DNA from: Polyangium spumosum
Lineage (GTDB): Bacteria > Myxococcota_A > Polyangia > Polyangiales > Polyangiaceae
NCBI RefSeq assembly: GCF_009649845.1
Contig: NZ_WJIE01000010.1
Coordinates: forward strand, 124,001 to 188,000
Direction: 5' to 3'
DNA length: 64,000 nt
Shown here: positions 18,901-28,108 of the stretch, piece by piece
Position numbering within the stretch: position 1 is the stretch's first letter
How the letters are laid out: each line of letters opens with the position of its first letter
Made by a program: the position numbers and the translations under genes
Notes under the pieces: generated by a model
Told to the model about the DNA's origin: nothing
What the model saw: the letters and a program-made list of their open reading frames with translations, nothing else
Database searches by the model: none

Positions 18901-19005
18901 ACGCTCTACATCACGCCGGTCATCTACACGTACCTCGACGCAGCAGGCGCACGTGTGACTCAAGCCTTCGCGCGGCGGAAGGCACGCGCGACGAGCGCGA
19001 CATAA
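15928..19005 (+). CDS. RND efflux pump permease (AcrB/MdtB family)
   Basis: A 1025-residue inner-membrane proton/drug antiporter of the hydrophobe/amphiphile efflux type. It has the usual duplicated layout: TM1 (MTTLSMLAIVIFGIAGF), a large periplasmic loop, five TMs, then the repeat. Family motifs include LPVSDLPNVDFPTIAVT in the first loop, the proton-relay pair in TM4 (GFVVDDAIVVLENV, Asp around 400-401) and the TM10 lysine (GIVKKNAIMMIDF, near 912). Length matches the family. It is coupled to the adaptor by a 4-base overlap. Substrates cannot be read from the sequence. Its last 46 bases overlap the 3' end of the convergent small membrane protein gene. Confidence 0.95.
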   Translation: MNVSRPFVTRPVMTTLSMLAIVIFGIAGFRALPVSDLPNVDFPTIAVTATLPGASPETMAAAVATPLERRFSTIAGVDAMTSTSGLGSTQIVLQFDLTRDIDAAALDVQSMIARAARDLPPDMPTPPSFQKVNPAESPILYLALRSETLPLSEVSEYAETTIAQRVSMIPGVAQVLVWGSQKYAVRIRLDPRALASREIGIDEVAAAVARENVNLPTGVLEGPDRAYVIQASGGLLRASAFRPIIVAYRDGAPVRLEELGTVLDSVENVRVESHYNGDRSIVLALQRQPGSNTVAVVDAVRELLPDLRAEIPAAVEIDTLYDRSVSIRESVADVEHTLLITIGLVVLVIGIFLRDLRSTLVASLALPISLIGTFAGMWALDYSLDNLSLLALTLSVGFVVDDAIVVLENVFRHLEMGKKPLQAALDGAGEIGFTVVSMTTSLVAVFVPVLFLGGIVGRLLREFAVTMSIAILVSGVVSLCLTPMLASRFLRLKSKKKHDEARAATTGRLDRAYARSLGFVMQHRFATLVVSFLLLGGTIVLGVIVPKGLFPSEDTGQIFAQTRAAQGTSFEAMSEYQAAAAAIVREHPAVRHVMSSHGGSNTGRLFIRLKDRDERDQKPEEVIADLRPKLAALPGLGVYMQNPPSIRLGGQLTRGLFQFTLTGTDTDELYDAAAELEQEMRNVPGLVDVTSDLERRTPEVELVIDRDRAATLGVSARSIEEALFSAYAGRLVSTIYAEANQYSVLLEVDPRFARDPSALGLLYVRAAGGELVPLSAISRIEEGTGPLSVSHLGQLPAVTISFNLAEGAPLGEAVAGVSALARERLPDTITTQFQGSAKVFRESLGGLGFLLILAILVIYVVLGILYESFIHPITILSGLPSAGFGALCALLLLGEELNVYSFVGVLLLVGIVKKNAIMMIDFALEAERRDKKPAAEAIVEGARIRFRPIMMTTMAALAGALPIALGFGAGAEARRPLGIAVVGGLVVSQLLTLYITPVIYTYLDAAGARVTQAFARRKARATSAT

Positions 19006-19373
19006 CCAATCTGGATCAACATGGGCACGCCAAAGCTGACGACCCCACTCCAGCGATCATTCCGCGGATGATAAATCCCGCCAGCCTCGGCGGCCACCAT
19101 GAAGACGAGGACCGTGACGAACGCAATCGGAAGGTTCATCACGAGCGCGAGCGGAAACCGTCGATGGTCGCCAATGACATGAAACGCACGCATGCCAGCG
19201 AGGCTGAGCAGGCCAACGACGCCAATCGGGAGCGCAAGGAACGCGACAGCGACGAGCGACATGACAGCACAAGGGCCATTCGCGAACATGTGCGAGCAGC
19301 CCGGATCAGCAAGCGCCGCGGCAGGCGCGAGCAGGGCGAGCAAGGCGGCCGCGAGGGCAAGGGGGCGAGGCAT
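18960..19373 (-). CDS. Small membrane protein with signal peptide
   Basis: A 137-residue protein. The ATG at 19373 is chosen because it begins a signal peptide (MPRPLALAAALLALLAP, then ALADPGC). Three further hydrophobic segments follow (SLVAVAFLALPIGVVGLLSL, LALVMNLPIAFVTVLVFMVA and SFGVPMLIQIGYVALVARAF), so it is an inner-membrane protein. The frame is open upstream into the hairpin repeat, but that part is not coding-like. Its stop lies inside the 3' end of the RND permease gene. Function unknown. Confidence 0.7.
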   Translation of the reverse strand: MPRPLALAAALLALLAPAAALADPGCSHMFANGPCAVMSLVAVAFLALPIGVVGLLSLAGMRAFHVIGDHRRFPLALVMNLPIAFVTVLVFMVAAEAGGIYHPRNDRWSGVVSFGVPMLIQIGYVALVARAFRRAKA

Positions 19374-19433
19374 GGGGGCGTTGTAGCCTTCTTTGGCGGG
19401 CATCTCCAGGGGCTCGGCTGGCGGGCGTGGGAG

Positions 19434-19538
19434 CCGGGGCGCTGCCCCGGACCCCGCGGGGGCTACGCGCCCCTCGACCCGCGCCAGGGCAAGCCCTGGA
19501 CTGGGGGTTGAAAAACTGCGCTCCGCGCAGTTTTTCAA
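19434..19538 (-). repeat. Four-hairpin repeat, copy A
   Basis: A 105-bp element read on the minus strand as four hairpins in a row. H1 is a perfect 14-bp stem with a 3-base loop at 19508-19538 (arm ttgaaaaactgcgc). H2 has arms ccaggg/ccctgg. H3 has ggggc/gcccc around a 5-base loop. H4 has ccggggc/gccccgg around a 3-base loop. The order and spacing match copies B and C. It lies about 60 bp upstream of the start at 19373. Confidence 0.85.
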
Positions 19539-19628
19539 ACAGGCCGGCGAAGAGGCCGGGTTGCCAGCAGAACCAGCAGCGCGGCTGTTTTGGTTGGCAG
19601 GGGCGTTTTTGGTCTTGATTGCGGCTGT

Positions 19629-19734
19629 TCGATGAACTGCGCGGAGCGCAGTTCATCGACCACGGGTCCAGCGCTTGCGCTGGTCCGGGTCCAGGGGTGG
19701 ACAACCCCTGGTCGGGCCTGGGGCGAAGCCCCAG
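19629..19734 (+). repeat. Four-hairpin repeat, copy B
   Basis: The second copy, facing copy A head to head across 90 bp. H1 (19629-19659) has arms tcgatgaactgcgc and gcgcagttcatcga with loop gga. H2 has ccagcg/cgctgg. H3 has ccaggggt/acccctgg around ggaca. H4 has ctggggc/gccccag around gaa. Bases that differ from copy A are changed on both arms, so every stem is kept. It ends 22 bp before the stop of the minus-strand gene at 19757. Between A and B (19539-19628) I see no gene. Confidence 0.85.
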
Positions 19735-19756
19735 CGAGGCGGTTCAGCTCGCGACC

Positions 19757-20542
19757 TCAGGGCGATTGCGTGGGGTCGGCGGGCGATTGCGTGGGGTCGG
19801 CGGCGGGGAGGTCGGTTTCTTCGGGCAGGCCTGCGCGGCGGCGGGCTGTGGGTTTCACGCGGTCGGCGAGGGTCTGGCGGTCGGCAAGGGTGAAGAGCAG
19901 GGATGTGAGGTCGGCGATCACGGGATAGCGGCGGCCCCAGGTTTCGAGCTCGGTGTTTTTCTTGTCGAGTGTTGATTGTGCTTCGCGCTTCTCGCGTTCG
20001 ACGTCGCCGAGGGAGTTTTCGACGGCCTTTGCGGCGGCCTTCAGGTCGTCGGCGGCGACCACGGGATCGATGCTGAGGCCCTTCATCTTGGGTTGTTCGA
20101 CGAGCGGGCGCGTGCGGAGGAGCTTCTCGACGCTGCCGGCTGTGTGAAGGAGGCTCTGGTTGTCGTCGGGCAGCGCTGCGGGCAGGCCGTATTCCGTCGG
20201 GAGGTCGGGGCTATAGTTGTTGCCGAGGGCGGTGCGGAGCGCGACGAGTGAGCCGCGCAGGTCTGCGAGGGATGACTCGCGCTTCTTGCGATAGCCGTCG
20301 TCGTCGGCGAGCTCGTTCGTATGGTCCTGATCGGCGATGGCGAGGTTCTGGGTGACGCCCTGGAGCAGGTTGCCGAGGGCCGTGACCACGTTGCCCATCG
20401 TGAGGTGGGGCGGCACGCCGTCAGGAAAAAGCAGCGAATCGAGGACGGGCGCGATCTCCGGCCCGTGCACGTTGATGGCCGCGATGACCGTATTCGTGAT
20501 CGCGACTCGATCCGCGACCATCCGTGAGACCTTCACTGTCAT
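19757..20542 (-). CDS. Unknown soluble protein with helical core
   Basis: A 261-residue protein with a strong Shine-Dalgarno (GGGAGGA, 6 bases before the ATG at 20542). It is mostly helical, with a probable coiled coil at about 165-205 (DDLKAAAKAVENSLGDVERE, ending KKNTELETWG). No signal peptide, membrane segment or enzymatic motif is seen. The extreme C-terminus is an exact duplication of seven residues (ADPTQSP twice), caused by a perfect 21-bp tandem repeat at 19761-19802. I do not recognise the family. Confidence 0.75.
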   Translation of the reverse strand: MTVKVSRMVADRVAITNTVIAAINVHGPEIAPVLDSLLFPDGVPPHLTMGNVVTALGNLLQGVTQNLAIADQDHTNELADDDGYRKKRESSLADLRGSLVALRTALGNNYSPDLPTEYGLPAALPDDNQSLLHTAGSVEKLLRTRPLVEQPKMKGLSIDPVVAADDLKAAAKAVENSLGDVEREKREAQSTLDKKNTELETWGRRYPVIADLTSLLFTLADRQTLADRVKPTARRRAGLPEETDLPAADPTQSPADPTQSP

Positions 20543-21023
20543 GAAGATTCCTCCCAGGGCGATGGATACCTGAACTCCGTCGCTGGAGGAATTCGAAACG
20601 TACGGTGGTAAAGATCACACGAGGAGGCGGCGGAGGGGGATCTTTGCCGTGAAAGAACGTGAGCCGGGGCACGTCGGTGAGCGAGGGGCGGGGGGACGAA
20701 GGGGGTTTCGGGGCGGCGGGGAGGCGAGGTTTACGCGGGGAGGGGCGTCGGGACGGGGGGCGACGCGAGGTTCAGGCGGGGCGGGGACGCGGCGGCGGGG
20801 GCGGGAGGGATCGGGGGTGGTGAAGGGCGGGCGGGAGCGCGGGGAAGGGGGAGGGGGCGCGGTGAAGAGGGGCGGGCGGCGGGGGGAGGCGCGAGGGGTG
20901 GTGGTGAAAGGAGGGGCGGGAGGGGGGGAGCTGGCGTTTTTGGTTGACAGGCGAGGCGGGCAAGGCATGCACGTCGTGCCCGGGACCTTGCGAGCGAGAA
21001 AGCGCCCCTGATAGGTTGCCCGT
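20543..21023. other. Non-coding gap with long purine-biased tract
   Basis: A gap of 481 bp between divergent genes. From about 20675 to 20935 the plus strand is almost entirely G and A, with many runs of three or more Gs. An open frame there translates to a low-complexity Gly/Arg string and has no coding signature, so I treat the stretch as non-coding. The last 70 bases before 21024 should hold the promoter of the lipoprotein gene, but I see no clear -35/-10 pair. Confidence 0.6.
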
Positions 21024-21512
21024 ATGACTGGCCGGGTTCGAGGAGCAGTCCAGGTCGCGACCGCTGCCGTGGCGGTGAGCGCCCTCGGGGGCTGCACGTT
21101 CGGAGACGTGCCGGAGGAAACGCCCTCCAGCGTCATCAACTGGCCGCCGTTTGCGGACAACTGCGTCCCCGTGGAGTGCTTGTTCGAGTGTTGCGACGGG
21201 TGGAACTACTCCAAGGACCCGATCCTCCACGGAGGGGTGGTGTTGGGAACCAAGTGCAACGAAGTCAAAGCGAAACACGCTGACTACGCCGAGTACGTTG
21301 CTCTGATGACTTCGGAAATGAACTTCTGCCCGAGTGATTTCGCAGGCATTGAGTCTGGGTATTGCCATGTCGTCCAGCCACCCGACGCCGTCAAAGAGTT
21401 CACCTTCGAGGGGCAGCCCGTCTACTCGGGGTTGAACTTTGCGGTTTGCCCGCCGAGCGTGCCGAAGGCGGCGCGTCCATTGGAAGATAAGGATCTCGCC
21501 CCCCAGGAGTGA
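21024..21512 (+). CDS. Small Cys-containing lipoprotein
   Basis: A 162-residue protein with a lipoprotein signal ending in lipobox ALGGC. The mature part has a cysteine cluster (NCVPVECLFECCDGW) and further single cysteines, suggesting disulphides in the periplasm or at the cell surface. No known domain was recognised. The next gene starts 10 bp downstream, so the two form an operon. Confidence 0.72.
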   Translation: MTGRVRGAVQVATAAVAVSALGGCTFGDVPEETPSSVINWPPFADNCVPVECLFECCDGWNYSKDPILHGGVVLGTKCNEVKAKHADYAEYVALMTSEMNFCPSDFAGIESGYCHVVQPPDAVKEFTFEGQPVYSGLNFAVCPPSVPKAARPLEDKDLAPQE

Positions 21513-21522
21513 GTGGGTCGTG

Positions 21523-22383
21523 ATGGTCGTGCCTGCGCGCCTCCTCGCGCTCTCCGTCATGGCTTGGGTTTCCCTCCACCCCGCGGAGGTCTTCGCGCAG
21601 CAAGGCCCCTGCGCGAGTCCCGAGCCCTTCCACGGGTTCTGGGGCGGTGGGGAACTCCAGGTAAGGGAACGCGTGGCGGGGGTTCCGGTCCTCGCCACGG
21701 CACGCTTTTCCTACAGGCAGATGCGGTACTCCCCCTGCGTCGGCGAGGCGGCCTTGCTCCCTCCTGGGGTCGGCGAGGCGAGCTTCAGCGTGGGTGTGCC
21801 TCTCTTCGACAATCGACGAGGTGGGTGGCTCCTGCAAATGGCCGCCCGCGGGCAAGGCTCGCAGAGGGCGAGCGAGCCAGTGAGCGGCGTCGTTACCGGC
21901 GCGCCCGCGATGGCCGGCCACCTCAATCTCTGGGAGACGCCGCTACCATTGATCCAGCTCACGGGGGCGGCGTCCGCGGCCATCGTGCCACAATCCCGAG
22001 ACGTTCCCCTGTCGCTCGCGTATCTCGGGGGGGTACGCGTCTACGCTCTTTACGGGAGGCACGCGCAAGCAAATCTGGGAATCATGGTCGGAGGCAACAA
22101 CGCTGCCGCCCACGTCGTGCCTTCGCTCGCGGTTCGATTGAGTGATGTGAAGATATGGAGTTACAGGACGGGCCTCGGCTTCGAGTTTCGCTCCCCCGTC
22201 GAGTTTTTTGGCGGCCCGGTGCCGGTTCGGTGGCGGCTCTGGGGCGCCTTGACCCTCCTGCTCGAAAAGCTCGACGAAAGCAGGAGCGACCGCGCGCGCG
22301 GAGCACAGACGCCCTCGCCCTCCGTCGACCTGGTCCGTTCCCCCCCGAATCCGCTCCGTCGACCCAGACCGCCTGGGAGATGA
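21523..22383 (+). CDS. Exported protein, possibly outer-membrane beta-barrel
   Basis: A 286-residue protein. The ATG at 21523 is chosen because it starts a signal peptide (MVVPARLLALSVMAWVSL, cleavage near VFAQQ) 10 bp after the previous stop; the longer frame upstream adds only an Arg-rich stretch. The mature region alternates short Gly-rich and aromatic strands (FWGGGELQVRERV, HAQANLGIMVGGNNAA, YRTGLGFEFRSPVEF), as in outer-membrane barrels or porin-like proteins. The last 40 residues are Pro/Arg-rich. Function unknown. It probably works with the small lipoprotein just upstream. Confidence 0.65.
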   Translation: MVVPARLLALSVMAWVSLHPAEVFAQQGPCASPEPFHGFWGGGELQVRERVAGVPVLATARFSYRQMRYSPCVGEAALLPPGVGEASFSVGVPLFDNRRGGWLLQMAARGQGSQRASEPVSGVVTGAPAMAGHLNLWETPLPLIQLTGAASAAIVPQSRDVPLSLAYLGGVRVYALYGRHAQANLGIMVGGNNAAAHVVPSLAVRLSDVKIWSYRTGLGFEFRSPVEFFGGPVPVRWRLWGALTLLLEKLDESRSDRARGAQTPSPSVDLVRSPPNPLRRPRPPGR

Positions 22384-22401
22384 CCCTGTGACAGTATCCG
22401 C

Positions 22402-23028
22402 TCATTCAGAGGGCAGCGCCCAGATTCGACGGCAGTCGCGGCGAATTGCTTCCATCCATCCGATCATGCTTTTCCTCGTCCGACCGTTGTAGGTGAGCTG
22501 TGACATCCCAACACGACTCTTTTCGCTTTGCGTCAGCTCGTCTTCGTCCAGATGCGCGGGAAATTCATGAAACTCGGCGCACTTCTCGACGCTGTTGAGC
22601 AGGTGTTCTCCAATCCCTGGAGGGTCTGCGCACGACATCCCGTGTGCCAAAACGTCGTATAAATTGATATGACCACTGATGGTCTCGCATACGTACGCAT
22701 TCTGCAGCGTCTCTCGCACCCTGCATTCCTGGACCTCTCGCCGAAGAGCCTCGACCTTGGCGACCTCCTCGGGCGCGGCGTCCTGCGTCATGACGACGGG
22801 CGGGGCGAGCTGCTCCTTCGCGAGCTGACGCAGCTCCTTCCGACAAGCCGCGATCTCTCGCTTCACCTCCTCGGCAGTGACGGGCTCCTTGCTCTGCGAC
22901 CTGGCCGGCGGCCTTCGCTCCCGGGTCGCCCAGCCGACCAGCACGCCGCCGCCGAACACGAGGCCGACCACGGTCAGCGCGACGAGGAGCCGAACGACGA
23001 GGCCAGCACGCTCGGGGCGCTCGCTCAT
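22402..23028 (-). CDS. Single-pass membrane protein, paralogue of upstream gene
   Basis: A 208-residue protein starting at ATG 23028, whose ATGA overlaps the stop of the upstream gene. One N-terminal membrane helix (LVVRLLVALTVVGLVFGGGV) is followed by a coiled coil (about residues 50-105) and a cysteine-containing globular end (VCETISGHINLYDVLAHG, EKCAEFHEFPAHLDEDELT). The same order occurs in the upstream protein (VCVAAARQFHVLLALPKDG, ERCAMFADVPPDYRADDLT), so the two come from a tandem duplication. The globular part should be periplasmic. Function unknown. Confidence 0.72.
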   Translation of the reverse strand: MSERPERAGLVVRLLVALTVVGLVFGGGVLVGWATRERRPPARSQSKEPVTAEEVKREIAACRKELRQLAKEQLAPPVVMTQDAAPEEVAKVEALRREVQECRVRETLQNAYVCETISGHINLYDVLAHGMSCADPPGIGEHLLNSVEKCAEFHEFPAHLDEDELTQSEKSRVGMSQLTYNGRTRKSMIGWMEAIRRDCRRIWALPSE

Positions 23029-23717
23029 AGGGGCGCCTCCTCGCGCTTGCGCTGCTTTGACCGATCCACCCCCGGCGGGTACTTCGGGGGCGTCTCCGTG
23101 CACGTGAAGACGAACTCTTTCAGGCGACGGAGCAGCTCGTCCTCCGTGAGCGTCCGATGGATCCGGACCGCCTCGGCGATGAGGCTCGATTGTTCCTTCG
23201 TGAGATCGTCCGCGCGGTAGTCGGGTGGAACGTCAGCGAACATGGCGCAGCGCTCGAAGTTCTCCTCGACGAGATCCGCGGCCCGCGACTTGGGCCCGCA
23301 CATCAAGCCATCCTTGGGCAAGGCCAGGAGCACGTGGAACTGACGGGCCGCGGCGACGCAGACTTCCGCGCTGGTCAAGAGTCCGCGCCGGTTGCATTGC
23401 GAGAGTTTTGCTTCGAGCGCCTCGATGGTGGCGGGCGTCTCGGCCGCGTCTGGGTTCGCTTCTTCGGGAGGAGCTGCGGTGGCTGAGGGGGTCGATCGGG
23501 GTTTCGAACGGGCTGCCAGTTTTTGATGACACGCCGAAAGTTCTGTCTGGGTTGCGAGATCCGCTGGCCGTTCCGCTGGGTTCTTTGCGGCAGCCGAGGG
23601 GGGCCGTTCCGGGATCGATCTGCCGGCGAAAATGCCGGCACCGAAGAGAGGAGCGAGCAGAACCGCCGCTGCAATGAAAGGAATCGGGCGACGCGGTTTC
23701 TTGGCACCTTCAGTCAT
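23025..23717 (-). CDS. Single-pass membrane protein with periplasmic Cys domain
   Basis: A 230-residue protein with a membrane helix (IPFIAAAVLLAPLFGAGIF) after a short basic N-terminus, a Pro/Ala-rich linker, a short coiled coil (IEALEAKLSQCNRR) and a domain with conserved cysteines and an acidic DDLT segment shared with its neighbour. It overlaps the downstream paralogue by four bases (ATGA), so both are made together. The C-terminus is charged (DRSKQRKREEAPL). Family not recognised. Confidence 0.72.
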   Translation of the reverse strand: MTEGAKKPRRPIPFIAAAVLLAPLFGAGIFAGRSIPERPPSAAAKNPAERPADLATQTELSACHQKLAARSKPRSTPSATAAPPEEANPDAAETPATIEALEAKLSQCNRRGLLTSAEVCVAAARQFHVLLALPKDGLMCGPKSRAADLVEENFERCAMFADVPPDYRADDLTKEQSSLIAEAVRIHRTLTEDELLRRLKEFVFTCTETPPKYPPGVDRSKQRKREEAPL

Positions 23718-23781
23718 GCGTCGACCTCACGATGACGCGGTTCCGATGCGCCACGCGAAGATGGCTGCGTGATGACCTCTC

Positions 23782-24363
23782 TCACTTTAGCAGCGCGACA
23801 TTACTCGATGGATTCGGAATTGAAGCGAAGGTCGCCATTGCCCGTATTTGATCGGCAACCTGCGCGATGTACAATCCGAAGAGCGCTCGGACTTCGGGAG
23901 TCCAAGAGGCTACGCGAAGGTGTCGCCACTCGGGGCGGTGTTTCTGGTCTTCCACGAAGAGAGAGCGTCGGCCCGCAAAAGCGTTAATACACTCGATCCA
24001 GTAGGGCTCGAACACTTTAGGCGGATTTGGCACATCGTCGAAGCTTTCGGAAAGGTCCAGAAGAAAGCCGCCCCTGAATGTGTCAAAAAATGCAAATTCC
24101 AAACTTGAAGCGTTCGGTCGGCGGTGCATGTGCTTGTTGTAGCTGTCGAGGCGTACGCGGAATCCTTGTTCGAATTTCCCGGGCTTGAGAGAGGCGCCGC
24201 CTCCGGGCACTACGACCTTCCGCCTTTTGTCGGTTCTTGGGTTGTCGTAGACGTCCAACTCGGTTTGGTTTTCAAACAAGAAAACGTATAGGCCGCGTCT
24301 GCGTCTGCTGTGGACGCCGCTCAGAAGCTGACTATCGGCCGAGGGTGTGAGCTCGTAGAGCAT
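23782..24363 (-). CDS. Unknown protein, third gene of nuclease operon
   Basis: A 193-residue protein 24 bp after the preceding gene in a co-directional set. Its codons are clearly more AT-rich than those of surrounding genes. It is rich in aromatic residues and looks compact and alpha/beta (GLYVFLFENQTELDVYDNP, SLEFAFFDTFRGGFLLDL). No signal peptide or membrane helix is seen. The family is not recognised. Its place after a PD-(D/E)XK nuclease suggests a role in the same pathway, but that is inference. Confidence 0.68.
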   Translation of the reverse strand: MLYELTPSADSQLLSGVHSRRRRGLYVFLFENQTELDVYDNPRTDKRRKVVVPGGGASLKPGKFEQGFRVRLDSYNKHMHRRPNASSLEFAFFDTFRGGFLLDLSESFDDVPNPPKVFEPYWIECINAFAGRRSLFVEDQKHRPEWRHLRVASWTPEVRALFGLYIAQVADQIRAMATFASIPNPSSNVALLK

Positions 24364-24387
24364 GGTTTTGATCCCCAGGGGCTGCGT

Positions 24388-24990
24388 TTACCCGCGGCGC
24401 CCGAGCCCTCGATTCGGAGCATCGTGAGGTTGCGGGCTCGGATCAAGGCTTGGGCCATCGCTACCGGCGCCGGCGGTTGCAATGGCTTGTTGGGTGGCCC
24501 CGAACGCGGCCGCAAACCCGTGCAGAACTCGCAGCCCAAGTTCCTCGGAATCATAGCCGAGGCGCGCTGCCAGAAGATCCCAATCGTCGCGCTCCGCCTG
24601 GGTTGCAAACGTCAGGAACAGCGTGCGTGTATCATAATTCTTCGCAGGGACCGGCCACATCTGATTGTGGCTGTAGTTGTCGCCTCGCTTTTTCAGTTGT
24701 GCGACAAACACCGTCCCCAAAATACGGAAACGTCGGTGCTCATGGTCGTGGTGGCAGAATGGGCGCGAATGTTCTGGAATCAGCCCGAGGACGTCCTCGT
24801 ACTCGACAGGATCACCATGAATGATTGCTTGTCTGATGGTTGCGTCCCAGGTATCGTCGAAGCAACAGACCGCTTCGTCGTCCGACATCATGTCCCGCTT
24901 CTCAAAGTTAGTGCCGAATACATGGTATCGGCTGGGGCGAATAAAATAGATCTTTTGTCTTCTAGGGATGTCGTTTGTGATGTGCATCAT
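24388..24990 (-). CDS. Unknown protein, second gene of nuclease operon
   Basis: A 200-residue protein. An ATG at 25008 is possible, but the ATG pair at 24990/24987 has a better Shine-Dalgarno (AGGA) and is preferred. The first 80 residues contain an acidic stretch (MSDDEAVCCFDDTWDATIRQ), followed by a His-rich segment (HSRPFCHHDHEHRRFRILG) that could bind a metal and a strand (GTVFVAQLKKRGDN). The C-terminal 40 residues are Gly/Pro-rich and may be disordered. AT-richer than flanking DNA. Function unknown. Confidence 0.65.
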   Translation of the reverse strand: MMHITNDIPRRQKIYFIRPSRYHVFGTNFEKRDMMSDDEAVCCFDDTWDATIRQAIIHGDPVEYEDVLGLIPEHSRPFCHHDHEHRRFRILGTVFVAQLKKRGDNYSHNQMWPVPAKNYDTRTLFLTFATQAERDDWDLLAARLGYDSEELGLRVLHGFAAAFGATQQAIATAGAGSDGPSLDPSPQPHDAPNRGLGRRG

Positions 24991-25011
24991 TCGTCCTGTG
25001 ATCTGCATCGA

Positions 25012-25944
25012 TCAATCATCACCTACGTGGTACATCGCGCGACCGTATTCAGCCGCGTGGCGCAATTTGCGCCGCAGCAGCTCCGTAAGGTCTACGAGAC
25101 CCTGGAACACCTGCGCAAGGTCGGACCCGTCCATGAGAACAGCGTAGATTCGGCCGCTCCGCGCGGCCTCTTCAACCGCATAATCAGTAAATCCACTCAT
25201 TGATACGAATAGGCCCAACGTGTTGTCGAGCTTGGTCTGCACCTTTCCTTGAAAATCCCGTACGTCCTTCGGCTCAATAGGCTTTGCCTCCCACTTGGCT
25301 TCGACGACTAGAAACGAGCCGTCAAAGACGATACTGCCATCAATTTGTTCACCGGGCCGAGCCATCGAGCCGCGAGGATCCATGTCGTGAAGGGCAAACA
25401 AGTCCCGGAGCAGTTCCTGAAATTGAAAGCCACGTCGCCGCTTGCTCGCCGCATCGTCAGGGATCATGCTCAATGCTAGAAACCTGTCGTTGAGCGCCTT
25501 CAAATCTCTTTGCCGCTGTATGCGAGCCACCCGCGAGCGCTCCGCCTCAGTTCGTGCTTCGCGACGCGCGCGATCGGCTCGCTCTGCGATGGTCTCCCGC
25601 CCCAAGAGGTCCTTGAGCGCGCGGACAGCTCGGCGCGCGTCATCAGCCTTCTTCTTCCCATCGTCGAGCCGCACGAGGTGTGGCATGTCCTCATCCATCT
25701 CGACAACGGAATCGATAATCCCGTTGAGGATGGGCATGCCGACCGCCGGCTCGCCTGCAAGTTGATCGACGAGACGCTGGGCAATGATGCGCTTGTAGGT
25801 TCCGGGGCCCCAGGGAAGCGCCCCCAAAACATCTGCGGGGACCCCCGCCCGCGTGAGGAACGAGCGTAGGTCGTTTTGGAACCAGTATATTGTTCGTAAA
25901 GCGTCGACCAGCGCGTTTAGGATAACGGCGGAGTAGACCTTCAT
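25012..25944 (-). CDS. PD-(D/E)XK restriction endonuclease-like protein
   Basis: A 310-residue protein. The ATG at 25944 (MKVYSAVILNALVDALRTIY) is preferred, because related nucleases, as I recall them, begin at this helix; a GTG at 26088 would add 48 residues. The N-terminal helical domain (1-100) includes YKRIIAQRLVDQL. A charged coiled coil (about 100-165) links to the nuclease fold, whose residues can be read in order: Glu in FQFQELLRDLF, Asp in EQIDGSIVF and the Glu-Xaa-Lys of LVVEAKW. All three catalytic positions are present. This matches Mrr-like type IV or orphan restriction enzymes. No methyltransferase gene is adjacent, so it is not a classical type II system. It heads a three-gene, AT-rich operon. 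Confidence 0.82.
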   Translation of the reverse strand: MKVYSAVILNALVDALRTIYWFQNDLRSFLTRAGVPADVLGALPWGPGTYKRIIAQRLVDQLAGEPAVGMPILNGIIDSVVEMDEDMPHLVRLDDGKKKADDARRAVRALKDLLGRETIAERADRARREARTEAERSRVARIQRQRDLKALNDRFLALSMIPDDAASKRRRGFQFQELLRDLFALHDMDPRGSMARPGEQIDGSIVFDGSFLVVEAKWEAKPIEPKDVRDFQGKVQTKLDNTLGLFVSMSGFTDYAVEEAARSGRIYAVLMDGSDLAQVFQGLVDLTELLRRKLRHAAEYGRAMYHVGDD

Positions 25945-26292
25945 GCCGGCCAGGGTTGTACCAGAACGCCGCTGCTGGAACAACCGGAGAAGATGCTCGA
26001 ACGCCAACTCGCACCTGGGGTCGACCGGAGCGAGGACAGGTAGTGGGAGCCAATCGCGATGCATCCATCGCTGGACGCAGTCCCTCACGGTATCTGCTTC
26101 ACGTCTTCAGAAGGCTTCCGCGGATGAATCGCTGCCTGCGTCCGCCCCCACGCTGACGTTACGCCCGGCGTGAACCAAGGTTAGACGCGCGAACCGCTTT
26201 GAATGTGCTTTAGGTCGCAGTTTGCCAGGAGCCCCCCGGGATGCGGAGACGATGTTCTGTTACCCTCCCGCGCATCCGGCCTTGTTCTGGTC
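25945..26292. other. Upstream region of nuclease operon
   Basis: No gene is called here. The nuclease frame stays open to 26088, and the rest (26089-26292) is intergenic and still AT-richer than average. It should contain the operon promoter on the minus strand, but I see no convincing -35/-10 pair. Confidence 0.4.
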
Positions 26293-26575
26293 ATGGGAAG
26301 ATCTTCGAAGCCGACCGACTACCCGCCCGAGCTGGTCGCCGAGACCCTTGACCTCCGTCACGAGGTCACGCGCCTCGCACGCGAGGGTCAGGCGTACACG
26401 CGGGAACCCGTGGACGACAGGGTGCAGCGCGTGTTCGTGAACGCGCTGCGCAACCTCTGGAGGCACACGCCGCACCCTGACGGCGCGAAGTTCATGAAGA
26501 GCGACGACCTTGGATTCGTGGCGCATCCGCCTGTCGAACGAACGCTGTGTAACCACCGAGTCCCCACCGGCCCGA
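26293..26575 (+). pseudogene. Possible gene remnant ending in hairpin repeat
   Basis: An open frame from ATG 26293 reads as a plausible short helical protein (MGRSSKPTDYPPELVAETLD, then VQRVFVNALRNLWRHTP, GAKFMKSDDLGFVAHPP) for about 90 residues and then enters repeat copy C without a stop. The sequence before 26576 looks protein-like; the part after is repeat. It may be a gene whose 3' end was lost or interrupted by the repeat. I do not recognise the family, and it could be chance. Confidence 0.3.
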
Positions 26576-26679
26576 TGGAAGAACTGCGCATTGCGCAGTT
26601 CTTCCACCCTCGGTCCAGGCCGTGCCTGGTCGGGGTCGAGGGGCGGACAGCCCCCGCGGGGTCTGGGGCGGCGCCCCAG
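26576..26679 (+). repeat. Four-hairpin repeat, copy C
   Basis: The third copy, about 7 kb from A and B and 83 bp upstream of the CorC-type gene. H1 (26576-26606) has arms tggaagaactgcgc and gcgcagttcttcca with loop att. H2 has ccaggc/gcctgg, H3 ggggc/gcccc around ggaca (the same loop as copy B), and H4 ctggggc/gccccag. All stems are perfect, although bases differ from the other copies. Confidence 0.85.
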
Positions 26680-26761: not shown

Positions 26762-28108
26762 GTGCGAAGGATCGGCGGGTCCTGTCAGGAGGCAGCCATC
26801 GTCACCGAGCTCCTCGTCATTTTTGCGCTCGTGCTGGTGAACGGCGTGCTCGCTGGGGCCGAGATTGCCGTCGTGGCGCTGCGTGGTTCGCGGCTCGATC
26901 AGCTCGTGGCCGAGAAGAGCTCGCGTGCGCGGGCCGTGAAGAACCTGCGCGACAACCCCGAGCGGTTCCTCGCCACGGTGCAGATTGGGATCACCGTGAT
27001 CGGCGCGCTGGCGGGGGCGTTTGGCGGGGCCACGTTTGCGGAGGATATTGCGCCTTTGGTCGCGGGGGTGCCTTTGCTCGCGGATCATGCCGAGGCGGTC
27101 GCGATTGGCGTCGTGGTCGTGCTGATTTCGTATCTCTCGCTCGTGCTCGGGGAGCTCGTGCCCAAGTCGCTCGCGTTGCGGTATGCCGAGACGTATGCGC
27201 TGAACATCGCCAAGCCGCTGCTCGGGCTCTCCTTCCTCACGCGGCCGGTCGTGTGGTTCTTGACGGCGAGTTCGAATGTCGTGCTGCGGCTGTTCGGGGA
27301 CAGGACGACGTTCACCGAGGCGCGGCTGTCGCCGGCCGAGCTGCAGCAGCTCCTCGGGGAGGCGACGAAGGCCGGCTCGGTGGATCCACGCGCGGGGGAG
27401 ATCGCGTCACGCGCGTTCGATTTGCCCGAGCTCTCGGCCGCGCAGGTGATGGTGCCGCGTACGCGGATGGTGAGCTTGTCGCGGGACGCGACGATCGAGG
27501 ACGTGCGACGGGTCGTCGCCGCGCATGGGCATACGCGGATGCCCGTGTATGAAGAGGATCTGGATCACGTGATCGGGTACGTGAACGTGAAGGACGTGTT
27601 CATGCGCGCCACCGGGGAGGTGTCCTTCACGGCGAAGGACGTGCTGCGGCATGCTTACTTCGTGGGGGAGAGCGTGCGCGCGGTCGCGCTGCTCGAGGCG
27701 ATGAAGAAGCGGCGGACGCAGATCGCGATCGTGGTCGATGAGCTCGGGGCGACGAGCGGGATGGTGACGCTGGAGGATCTCGTCGAGGAGCTCGTGGGGG
27801 ATGTGTTCGGTGAGCACGAGGCGCCGAAGCCGGAGATCGTGTGCCCCGAGGCGGAGGGGACGTTCCTCGTGCTGGGCAGCGCGCCGGTGCACGACGTGAA
27901 TCGCGCGCTCGGGCTCGATTTGCCGATGGAGGAGAGCTTCACGACGATCGCGGGGCTCGTGCTGCACCTGGCCCAGAGTATCCCCGCGGAAGGGACGAAG
28001 TTGACGACGGAGGACGGGACGGGGATCGAGGTCGTGGAGGCGACGCCGCAGCGCGTGCGGAAGGTGCGGATCACGCCGCCGGCTGCTCCGACGGAGGGCG
28101 AGCGGTAG
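26762..28108 (+). CDS. CorC/HlyC-type membrane protein with CBS domains
   Basis: A 448-residue protein if the GTG at 26762 is used. The family-like N-terminus (TELLVIFALVLVNGVLAGAE) follows an ATC codon at 26798 that sits 5 bases after a perfect AGGAGG, so the true start may be ATC. Residues about 15-200 form the DUF21 membrane domain with three or four helices (GVVVVLISYLSLVLGELVPK). A CBS pair follows (about 215-345; TRMPVYEEDLDHVIGYVNV, AIVVDELGATSGMVTLEDL), then the C-terminal CorC_HlyC domain (FLVLGSAPVHDVNRAL). Such proteins act in Mg/Co efflux or ion homeostasis; the old haemolysin name is not informative. Its last 38 bases overlap the convergent CDF gene. Confidence 0.88.
   Translation: MRRIGGSCQEAAIVTELLVIFALVLVNGVLAGAEIAVVALRGSRLDQLVAEKSSRARAVKNLRDNPERFLATVQIGITVIGALAGAFGGATFAEDIAPLVAGVPLLADHAEAVAIGVVVVLISYLSLVLGELVPKSLALRYAETYALNIAKPLLGLSFLTRPVVWFLTASSNVVLRLFGDRTTFTEARLSPAELQQLLGEATKAGSVDPRAGEIASRAFDLPELSAAQVMVPRTRMVSLSRDATIEDVRRVVAAHGHTRMPVYEEDLDHVIGYVNVKDVFMRATGEVSFTAKDVLRHAYFVGESVRAVALLEAMKKRRTQIAIVVDELGATSGMVTLEDLVEELVGDVFGEHEAPKPEIVCPEAEGTFLVLGSAPVHDVNRALGLDLPMEESFTTIAGLVLHLAQSIPAEGTKLTTEDGTGIEVVEATPQRVRKVRITPPAAPTEGER

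Follow-up and report, generated by a model that had tools for sequence, protein, structure and literature searches.

What are the hairpin-rich repeats in a 64,000-nucleotide stretch of the Polyangium spumosum genome, and what put them there? The stretch (the window: contig NZ_WJIE01000010.1, positions 124,001 to 188,000) holds three copies, A, B and C, of a sequence of about 105 bp that folds into a row of four hairpins, H1 to H4. A first-pass annotation, made from the letters alone, drew attention to them and offered three explanations: a mobile element moved by a distant transposase, a processing or stability element of transcripts, or a structured small RNA. Very probably, the repeats are halves of a miniature inverted-repeat transposable element (MITE) of a Tn5-like insertion sequence (IS), spread mainly behind stop codons in Polyangium. 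We think so because MITE and IS have the same 18-bp ends, the MITE is of fixed length, both are flanked by direct repeats of 9–10 bp, and the IS encodes a transposase of the IS4/Tn5 family. We class it as a new MITE family, an unusual one, within the IS4/Tn5 group. An abundant repeat of large myxobacterial genomes thereby gains complete ends and a candidate enzyme.

In window coordinates, the copies are laid out as follows.

19434..19538, minus strand: half A, one half of a head-to-head element, with H2 CCAGGG/CCCTGG and H4 CCGGGG/CCCCGG (covariance-model match G000:C10:143434-143538).
19508..19538, minus strand: H1 of half A, a perfect stem of 14 bp with loop GGA.
19539..19628, no strand: central spacer between halves A and B, 90 bp, among the family's two most frequent spacer lengths.
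19629..19734, plus strand: half B, the other half of A's element, with H2 CCAGCG/CGCTGG and H4 CTGGGG/CCCCAG (covariance-model match G000:C10:143629-143734).
19629..19659, plus strand: H1 of half B, a perfect stem of 14 bp with loop GGA.
26576..26679, plus strand: half C, solo, placed by direct reading, alignment and model search.
26576..26606, plus strand: H1 of half C, a perfect stem of 14 bp with loop ATT.

The annotation's description holds up on direct reading: the three copies carry four hairpins in one order, align in register with a mean column identity of 82%, and differ at stem positions 2, 5 and 6 of H1 with matching changes in the partner bases, the 14-bp stem and 3-base loop being kept throughout. 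Their folding energies lie beyond those of dinucleotide shuffles, with z from -3.7 to -7.5 over five folds (A, B and C in the unit sense, A and B in the reverse sense). Its count of copies needs amending. Three units exist, but A and B together make up a single head-to-head element, about 300 bp long and lacking its ends, since head-to-head pairs recur at a fixed distance in the family and their halves usually differ. For half C, the model search gave no partner half, and there is no terminal inverted repeat within five mismatches between 26450 and 26800. The window copies are relics, without terminal repeats.

The family is large. In the window's own genome (G000; G001 to G005 are other Polyangium genomes, G002 being P. 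fumosum) there are 54 exact matches to the H1 core, as against none for a reversed control, so that the core is no chance match. The annotation had staked its reading on further copies whose stems survive drift. Trained on 36 units of this genome, a covariance model finds at least 81 half-units there (150 out of 12061 candidates having been scored), and 95.9% of the pair cells in the 36 units are standard pairs. It had also proposed such a scan for related Polyangiales, and here the outcome is divided. All six Polyangium genomes carry the family, with at least 67 model matches in each, but outside the genus there is one weak model match, in a single genome among 53, and the core pattern matches four of 115 order-level genomes, all four of them Polyangium, and none of the 111 others. 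The family is thus Polyangium-specific among the genomes searched, and not Polyangiales-wide. A pattern scan gave at least 120 loci, of which 61 entered the search that yielded 131 distinct units from four other Polyangium genomes. The plasmid search returned matches of 26–37 bases only, in 7 records, and no paper treating the repeat by title or abstract was found in open-licence PMC text with the terms used. Within G004:C1, sites matching two core patterns are dense at 5–7 Mb (42 and 39 per Mb), with few below 3 Mb (8 sites), among the matches listed, which run to 7.2–7.8 Mb. With dnaA at 11.65 Mb, the dense zone lies near the opposite side of the chromosome, the origin being placed by dnaA, as the GC skew of twenty 20-kb samples is too noisy for origin or terminus.

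Units lie head to head with H1 inward. Neighbours less than 500 bp apart are minus-plus in 162 cases, minus-minus in 14, plus-plus in 13 and plus-minus in none, counts that still include some overlapping loci twice. The own genome has 16 head-to-head pairs, and in 10 of these, A/B included, the unit starts are exactly 195 bp apart. The two halves are of different types in 104 of the 122 pairs typed at H2, where about 51% would be expected. A complete copy therefore reads as an 18-bp terminal repeat, H4-H3-H2-H1, a spacer mostly of 85–120 bp, H1-H2-H3-H4 of a second half that is usually of another type, and the terminal repeat inverted: two rows of about 105 bp, and eight hairpins in all. Most units have CTGT or CCGT before H1. 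At four places (L007 1337-1440, L012 1637-1741, L025 3135-3240 and L033 6259-6364) the H1 stems are quite different, for example GCATCGACTGCGC or TGCGAAAGCCGCGC, and still paired, with H2 to H4 unchanged. There are four listed cases of widely separated halves (gaps of 502–1570 bp, two being the same place); for three of them the reading frames were inspected by eye, and no frame resembled a transposase, though no family search was run on them.

The ends are what make this a transposable element. About one unit end in eight (44 of 360, by a loose pattern) runs on past H4 into GATGAGACCNATGCTCA, and an exact search for the terminal end gives 91 places, spread over all six Polyangium genomes. Short copies in which both ends can be read measure 350–392 bp and have the 18-bp inverted repeat at their termini; eight of the 11 short full-length elements come from P. 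fumosum. Counting one of two spans that share an end, there are 16 end-to-end spans, and direct repeats of 9–10 bp with no more than one mismatch flank 14 of them: 10 among the 11 MITEs and four among the five IS copies. For two of the duplications, the 10-bp register was accepted once the data had been seen. Separate junction alignments pair eight element-bearing sites with a site in another Polyangium genome that is apparently empty. The short elements do not carry a transposase: tblastn with the transposase described below gave no match at L262-L270, where short full-length elements lie. Some longer versions exist as well. L257, L258, L259 and L260, all in G004, are of some 0.75–1.3 kb, in which additional sequence lies between the flanking halves, and L258 holds the final 49 residues of the Tn5-like transposase at 94% identity. 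L256 1260-4798 (G003:C45) is a 3.5-kb span with both complete terminal repeats, a 401-amino-acid IS1-like protein (NF033558, 53 bits against a cut-off of 100) and no direct repeats, possibly one transposon inside another.

A search for DDE transposases, followed by reading of their surroundings, turned up an IS of 1503–1504 bp whose ends are those of the MITE with 0–2 mismatches. Four intact copies lie in G004, with proteins at least 99.6% identical, and one in G001, at 84.5%. The protein, of 475–481 amino acids, scores 254.8 bits (L303) with the NCBIfam IS4 model NF033590, where the cut-off is 160; it has the Pfam Tnp_DNA_bind and Tn5 dimerisation domains, and matches the Tn5 transposase of solved structure, PDB 1mus, at E 4.6e-36, with the DREAD and RWRIE regions aligning column for column. 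IS4-family transposases are recognized by the signature Y-(2)-R-(3)-E-(6)-K and by their DDE catalytic positions. Both are present here, the signature as YSQRWRIEDFFRTWK; the first catalytic D, at the position we take it to occupy, sits one column off relative to Tn5. Tn5 makes target duplications of 9 bp, and the ends of IS50 and IS10 presumably start CTGA, as the ends here do. We infer that the Tn5-like transposase moves the MITE. Four of the five IS copies themselves sit within an element half, at the H2 palindrome.

Not everything fits so well, and several observations weigh against linking MITE and IS in this way. Two of the 16 spans, L077 and L304, are without a direct repeat, and most copies are without a terminal repeat, as even the loose search passes so few unit ends. 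The intact IS was found in two of the six Polyangium genomes, G002 and G003 having been covered by a general family search from which 30 of 47 matches were fetched. The own genome gave only a broken relative, in two pieces at 66% and 46% identity, and G005 a stretch at 62%. Seventeen of 56 other genomes of the order sample, in which the MITE was not found, have relatives of the transposase too, so that the transposase group reaches further than the MITE does. Finally, no likeness between MITE and IS was seen beyond the ends.

Could the mover be something else? Palindromic doublets are the mark of repetitive extragenic palindromic sequences (REPs) and of their composites, BIMEs and REPINs, which a Y1 tyrosine (RAYT) transposase mobilises by way of single-stranded hairpins, and the present family might be a new kind of these. 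Head-to-head doublets, heterodimers, spacers and a place at the 3' ends of convergent genes are all REP-like, to judge from passages of PMC3733652 and PMC3116915. Yet three of the six Polyangium genomes, the two-contig G004 among them, gave no match for Y1_Tnp domains, no element lies in the four Y1 loci that were fetched, of about 3.2 kb each, the sequence before H1 is neither GTAG nor CGTC, and the 9-bp duplications and the matching ends of a Tn5-like IS point elsewhere. We consider this origin very improbable, and reject the RAYT/Y1 transposase as mover. The annotation's guess of a mobile REP/MITE-like element with a distant transposase is nevertheless supported by the inverted repeats at the termini, by the duplicated targets, by the sites that are apparently empty and by the IS.

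Where the elements sit is as distinctive as what they are made of. With genes called by a home-made caller, and with three overlapping loci and identical contexts dropped beforehand, there are 225 element clusters, some orthologous sites being entered for several species; without the 35 located at locus edges, 190 remain with both neighbours called. Convergent genes flank 113 of these, co-directional genes 59 and divergent genes 18, as against 55, 191 and 59 among 305 background gene pairs in twenty 20-kb windows of G004. The convergent excess (113/190 against 55/305) has a Fisher p of 4.5e-21, and own-genome loci alone give 26 of 48, p 3.3e-7. In 159 of the 190 clusters, H4 has a stop codon no more than 60 bp away; stops at this distance comprise 128 TGA, 53 TAG and 7 TAA. 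In paired elements, the outer H4 end lies a median of 20 bp from the stop at 80 convergent sites; at 41 co-directional sites the medians are 22 bp for the stop upstream and 119 bp for the start downstream. Half C is an exception, placed 82 bp before a predicted start.

What draws the elements there may in part be the shape of the target. Reconstructed empty sites have a median palindrome score of 4.5, against 3.0 for shuffled or random genomic controls (p 0.0013–0.0017, n=14; p 0.013 for short elements alone). Some targets are clear hairpins (L206, L263), and the empty allele at L226 has a small GGGGG-CCCCC hairpin directly 3' of a stop codon. The preference is modest, however, half of the 14 targets scoring 4 or less, in the ordinary range, and this too counts against the account given here. 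There is a precedent in insertion sequences that choose REP palindromes (passages of PMC1525189). At 13 orthologous sites, hand-picked as those with a unit pair in both species, all comparisons being between species, the element is flipped in seven, and at most junctions the orthologous copies show several base differences. We also weighed site-specific inversion as a cause of the flips; the differing junctions fit independent insertion at the same gap, or replacement, without being decisive. At co-directional sites, orientation relative to transcription is 21 to 13 (p 0.23), no clear bias. The flipped sites and this ratio both fit insertion regardless of the transcribed strand.

Do the elements earn their keep at gene ends? 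Whatever moved them in the past, the copies may now be domesticated, selected as bidirectional terminators or as hairpins that stabilise mRNA, and so serve the host; we hold this to be a real possibility while leaning against it. The sharp pile-up behind stop codons and the strong hairpins on both strands speak for it, as do the 13 compared sites with a full pair in two species. The eight sites apparently empty in a relative speak against it, and the gene-end placement could be explained by insertion preference alone. No T-run was seen after the hairpins in the copies read, judged by eye and not by count, which argues against terminators; the 21 to 13 orientation neither requires nor excludes either function.

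In the account that we favour, the Tn5-like transposase of the 1.5-kb IS would mobilise the MITE through the matching ends and generate the 9–10 bp duplications, at targets that are somewhat palindromic and could include terminator hairpins. As each half is a row of strong hairpins on both strands, the insertion would supply replacement 3' hairpins and be tolerated. Terminal repeats would afterwards be lost from most copies, leaving fixed relics, and the stems would be kept perfect by correction between hairpin arms, templating each other in DNA replication, and by exchange between copies, beside any selection for folding. More tentatively still, and on balance we doubt that all of it is right, we suggest that the transposon carries its own 3'-end hairpins. 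Homing on gene-end palindromes, often terminator hairpins, it would split these and put its own in their place, four strong hairpins per side on both strands, harmless either way round, as the flipped copies at seven of the 13 orthologous sites would have it, while hairpin correction in DNA would keep every stem perfect. If this were so, a selfish element would have been shaped into a portable bidirectional terminator.

There remain the stems. The annotation saw matched changes in every stem and concluded that the folded form is what is conserved. The first part is largely right: compensatory changes occur in all four hairpins, although within H2 there is hardly any variation at four of the five pairs counted. 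Among the 36 own-genome units, 16 of 34 pairs change on both sides; among the 131 from other genomes, in an alignment fitted to the covariance model, 19 of 34 do, and 99.5% of the pair cells are standard. In the 36 units the pair counts are higher than in shuffled and slid controls, and likewise in the 131, except for the number of pair types, which does not surpass shuffles (154 of 500). Two-sided cells outnumber one-sided ones by 463 to 12 in the 131 units and by 114 to 15 in the 36, cells being copies and not events, so that independent changes are fewer. In 298 units (those with incomplete model coverage or short flanks having been dropped earlier) H1 is perfect in 276, has one mismatch in 21 and is unplaced in one, with 35 stem variants; its pairs comprise 4137 Watson-Crick, 6 G.U and 15 others. 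Loops occur in both senses on one and the same stem, for example 73 ATC against 4 GAT, and similarly GGA and TCC.

Covariation in four helices, with whole-structure measures above the slid controls and nearly all shuffles, speaks for a small RNA or a cis-acting RNA motif under selection for its fold. In RNA, compensatory change is usually taken to go by way of G-U, according to passages of PMC8794818 and PMC8604942, and here G.U pairs and one-sided changes are scarcely to be found. Loops in both senses do not suit an RNA either, the lack of a clear orientation bias lends a strand-specific RNA no support, and a scan of the window with Rfam covariance models gave no match up to an E-value of 1. 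The annotation's small-RNA option has thus little left to recommend it, and we rate it very unlikely, a shade less so than a RAYT origin.

We incline slightly to a different explanation, that the two-sided changes come from template switching (quasipalindrome correction) or from exchange of whole hairpins, and not from selection on folding. The same papers describe template switching, in the passages cited, as a source of double changes, arm homogenisation and inversion of the loop or spacer, and the scarcity of intermediates, the many variants of a nearly always perfect H1 and the inverted loops are what it would leave behind. Exchange of hairpins is consistent with the occurrence of all the main combinations of H2, H3 and H4 types. 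For rRNA genes, a passage of PMC8794818 calls loop inversion with compensation extremely rare, which counsels restraint, and selection, linked to transposition, for perfect DNA palindromes would give a similar pattern. Nor is template switching a full rival to the Tn5-like MITE, as it accounts for the stems and not for the spread. We read stem perfection as largely DNA-level, because double changes come with hardly any G.U, loops are inverted and template switching can produce both. Nearly all-double changes and inverted loops suggest selection on RNA no more than they suggest correction of hairpins at the DNA level: the stems do pair, but the step from pairing to selection on the fold is weaker than the annotation supposed. 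Covariation of textbook quality in every stem can arise in this way, and need not imply a functional RNA; with many copies across related genomes, both this point and the MITE are testable.

The surroundings of the window copies can be given briefly.

18960..19403, minus strand: predicted gene flanking the A/B element on the A side, co-directional, no Pfam match.
19757..20536, minus strand: predicted gene adjoining half B, its stop codon 22 bp from H4 of B, no Pfam match.
26762..28108, plus strand: CNNM/CorC-type transporter gene, the one whose predicted start lies downstream of half C.

Directly upstream of C, at 26248-26490, lies a second dispersed repeat, with stretches 91–95% identical in G005, G000 C11 and G004, and 79% identical in G002; a reading frame across it has no Pfam match. 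Further upstream, 25012-26088 encodes a protein with an Mrr-type restriction endonuclease domain. A gene caller based on codon usage called no genes in this stretch, which is perhaps foreign DNA for that reason.

How does the element compare with what is known? With Tn5 and IS50 of the IS4 family, the IS shares transposase domains, the DREAD and YREK-type motifs, the sequence match to the Tn5 structure and 9-bp duplications; the terminal repeat here is CTGAGCATNGGTCTCATC, and the MITE is gene-less with eight hairpins. The SPRITE, BOX and RUP elements of pneumococcus are not known to be related to it in sequence or host. They resemble it in being interspersed, in that one is terminator-like and in inserting into one another, in the passages of PMC10969869 that deal with them. 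That paper's passages on bacterial MITEs depict short, gene-less, intergenic elements, thought to be IS-derived, with terminal repeats, stem-loops and direct repeats that wane with age, all of which applies here; they are typically AT-rich, whereas the Polyangium element is GC-rich, built of inverted multi-hairpin halves and clustered behind stop codons. With REPs, BIMEs and REPINs it shares head-to-head doublets, heterodimers and a 3'-end location, within 20 bp of both convergent open reading frames (passages of PMC3733652 and PMC3116915). Its halves, however, are 105-bp rows of four hairpins instead of a palindrome of 20–40 bp; they lack the GTAG/CGTC tag, and in place of an associated RAYT, none of which was found in the genomes searched, there are inverted terminal repeats and target duplications. 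The result is a GC-rich, hairpin-packed MITE that mimics REPs in its location at gene ends, while apparently depending on a different class of transposase.

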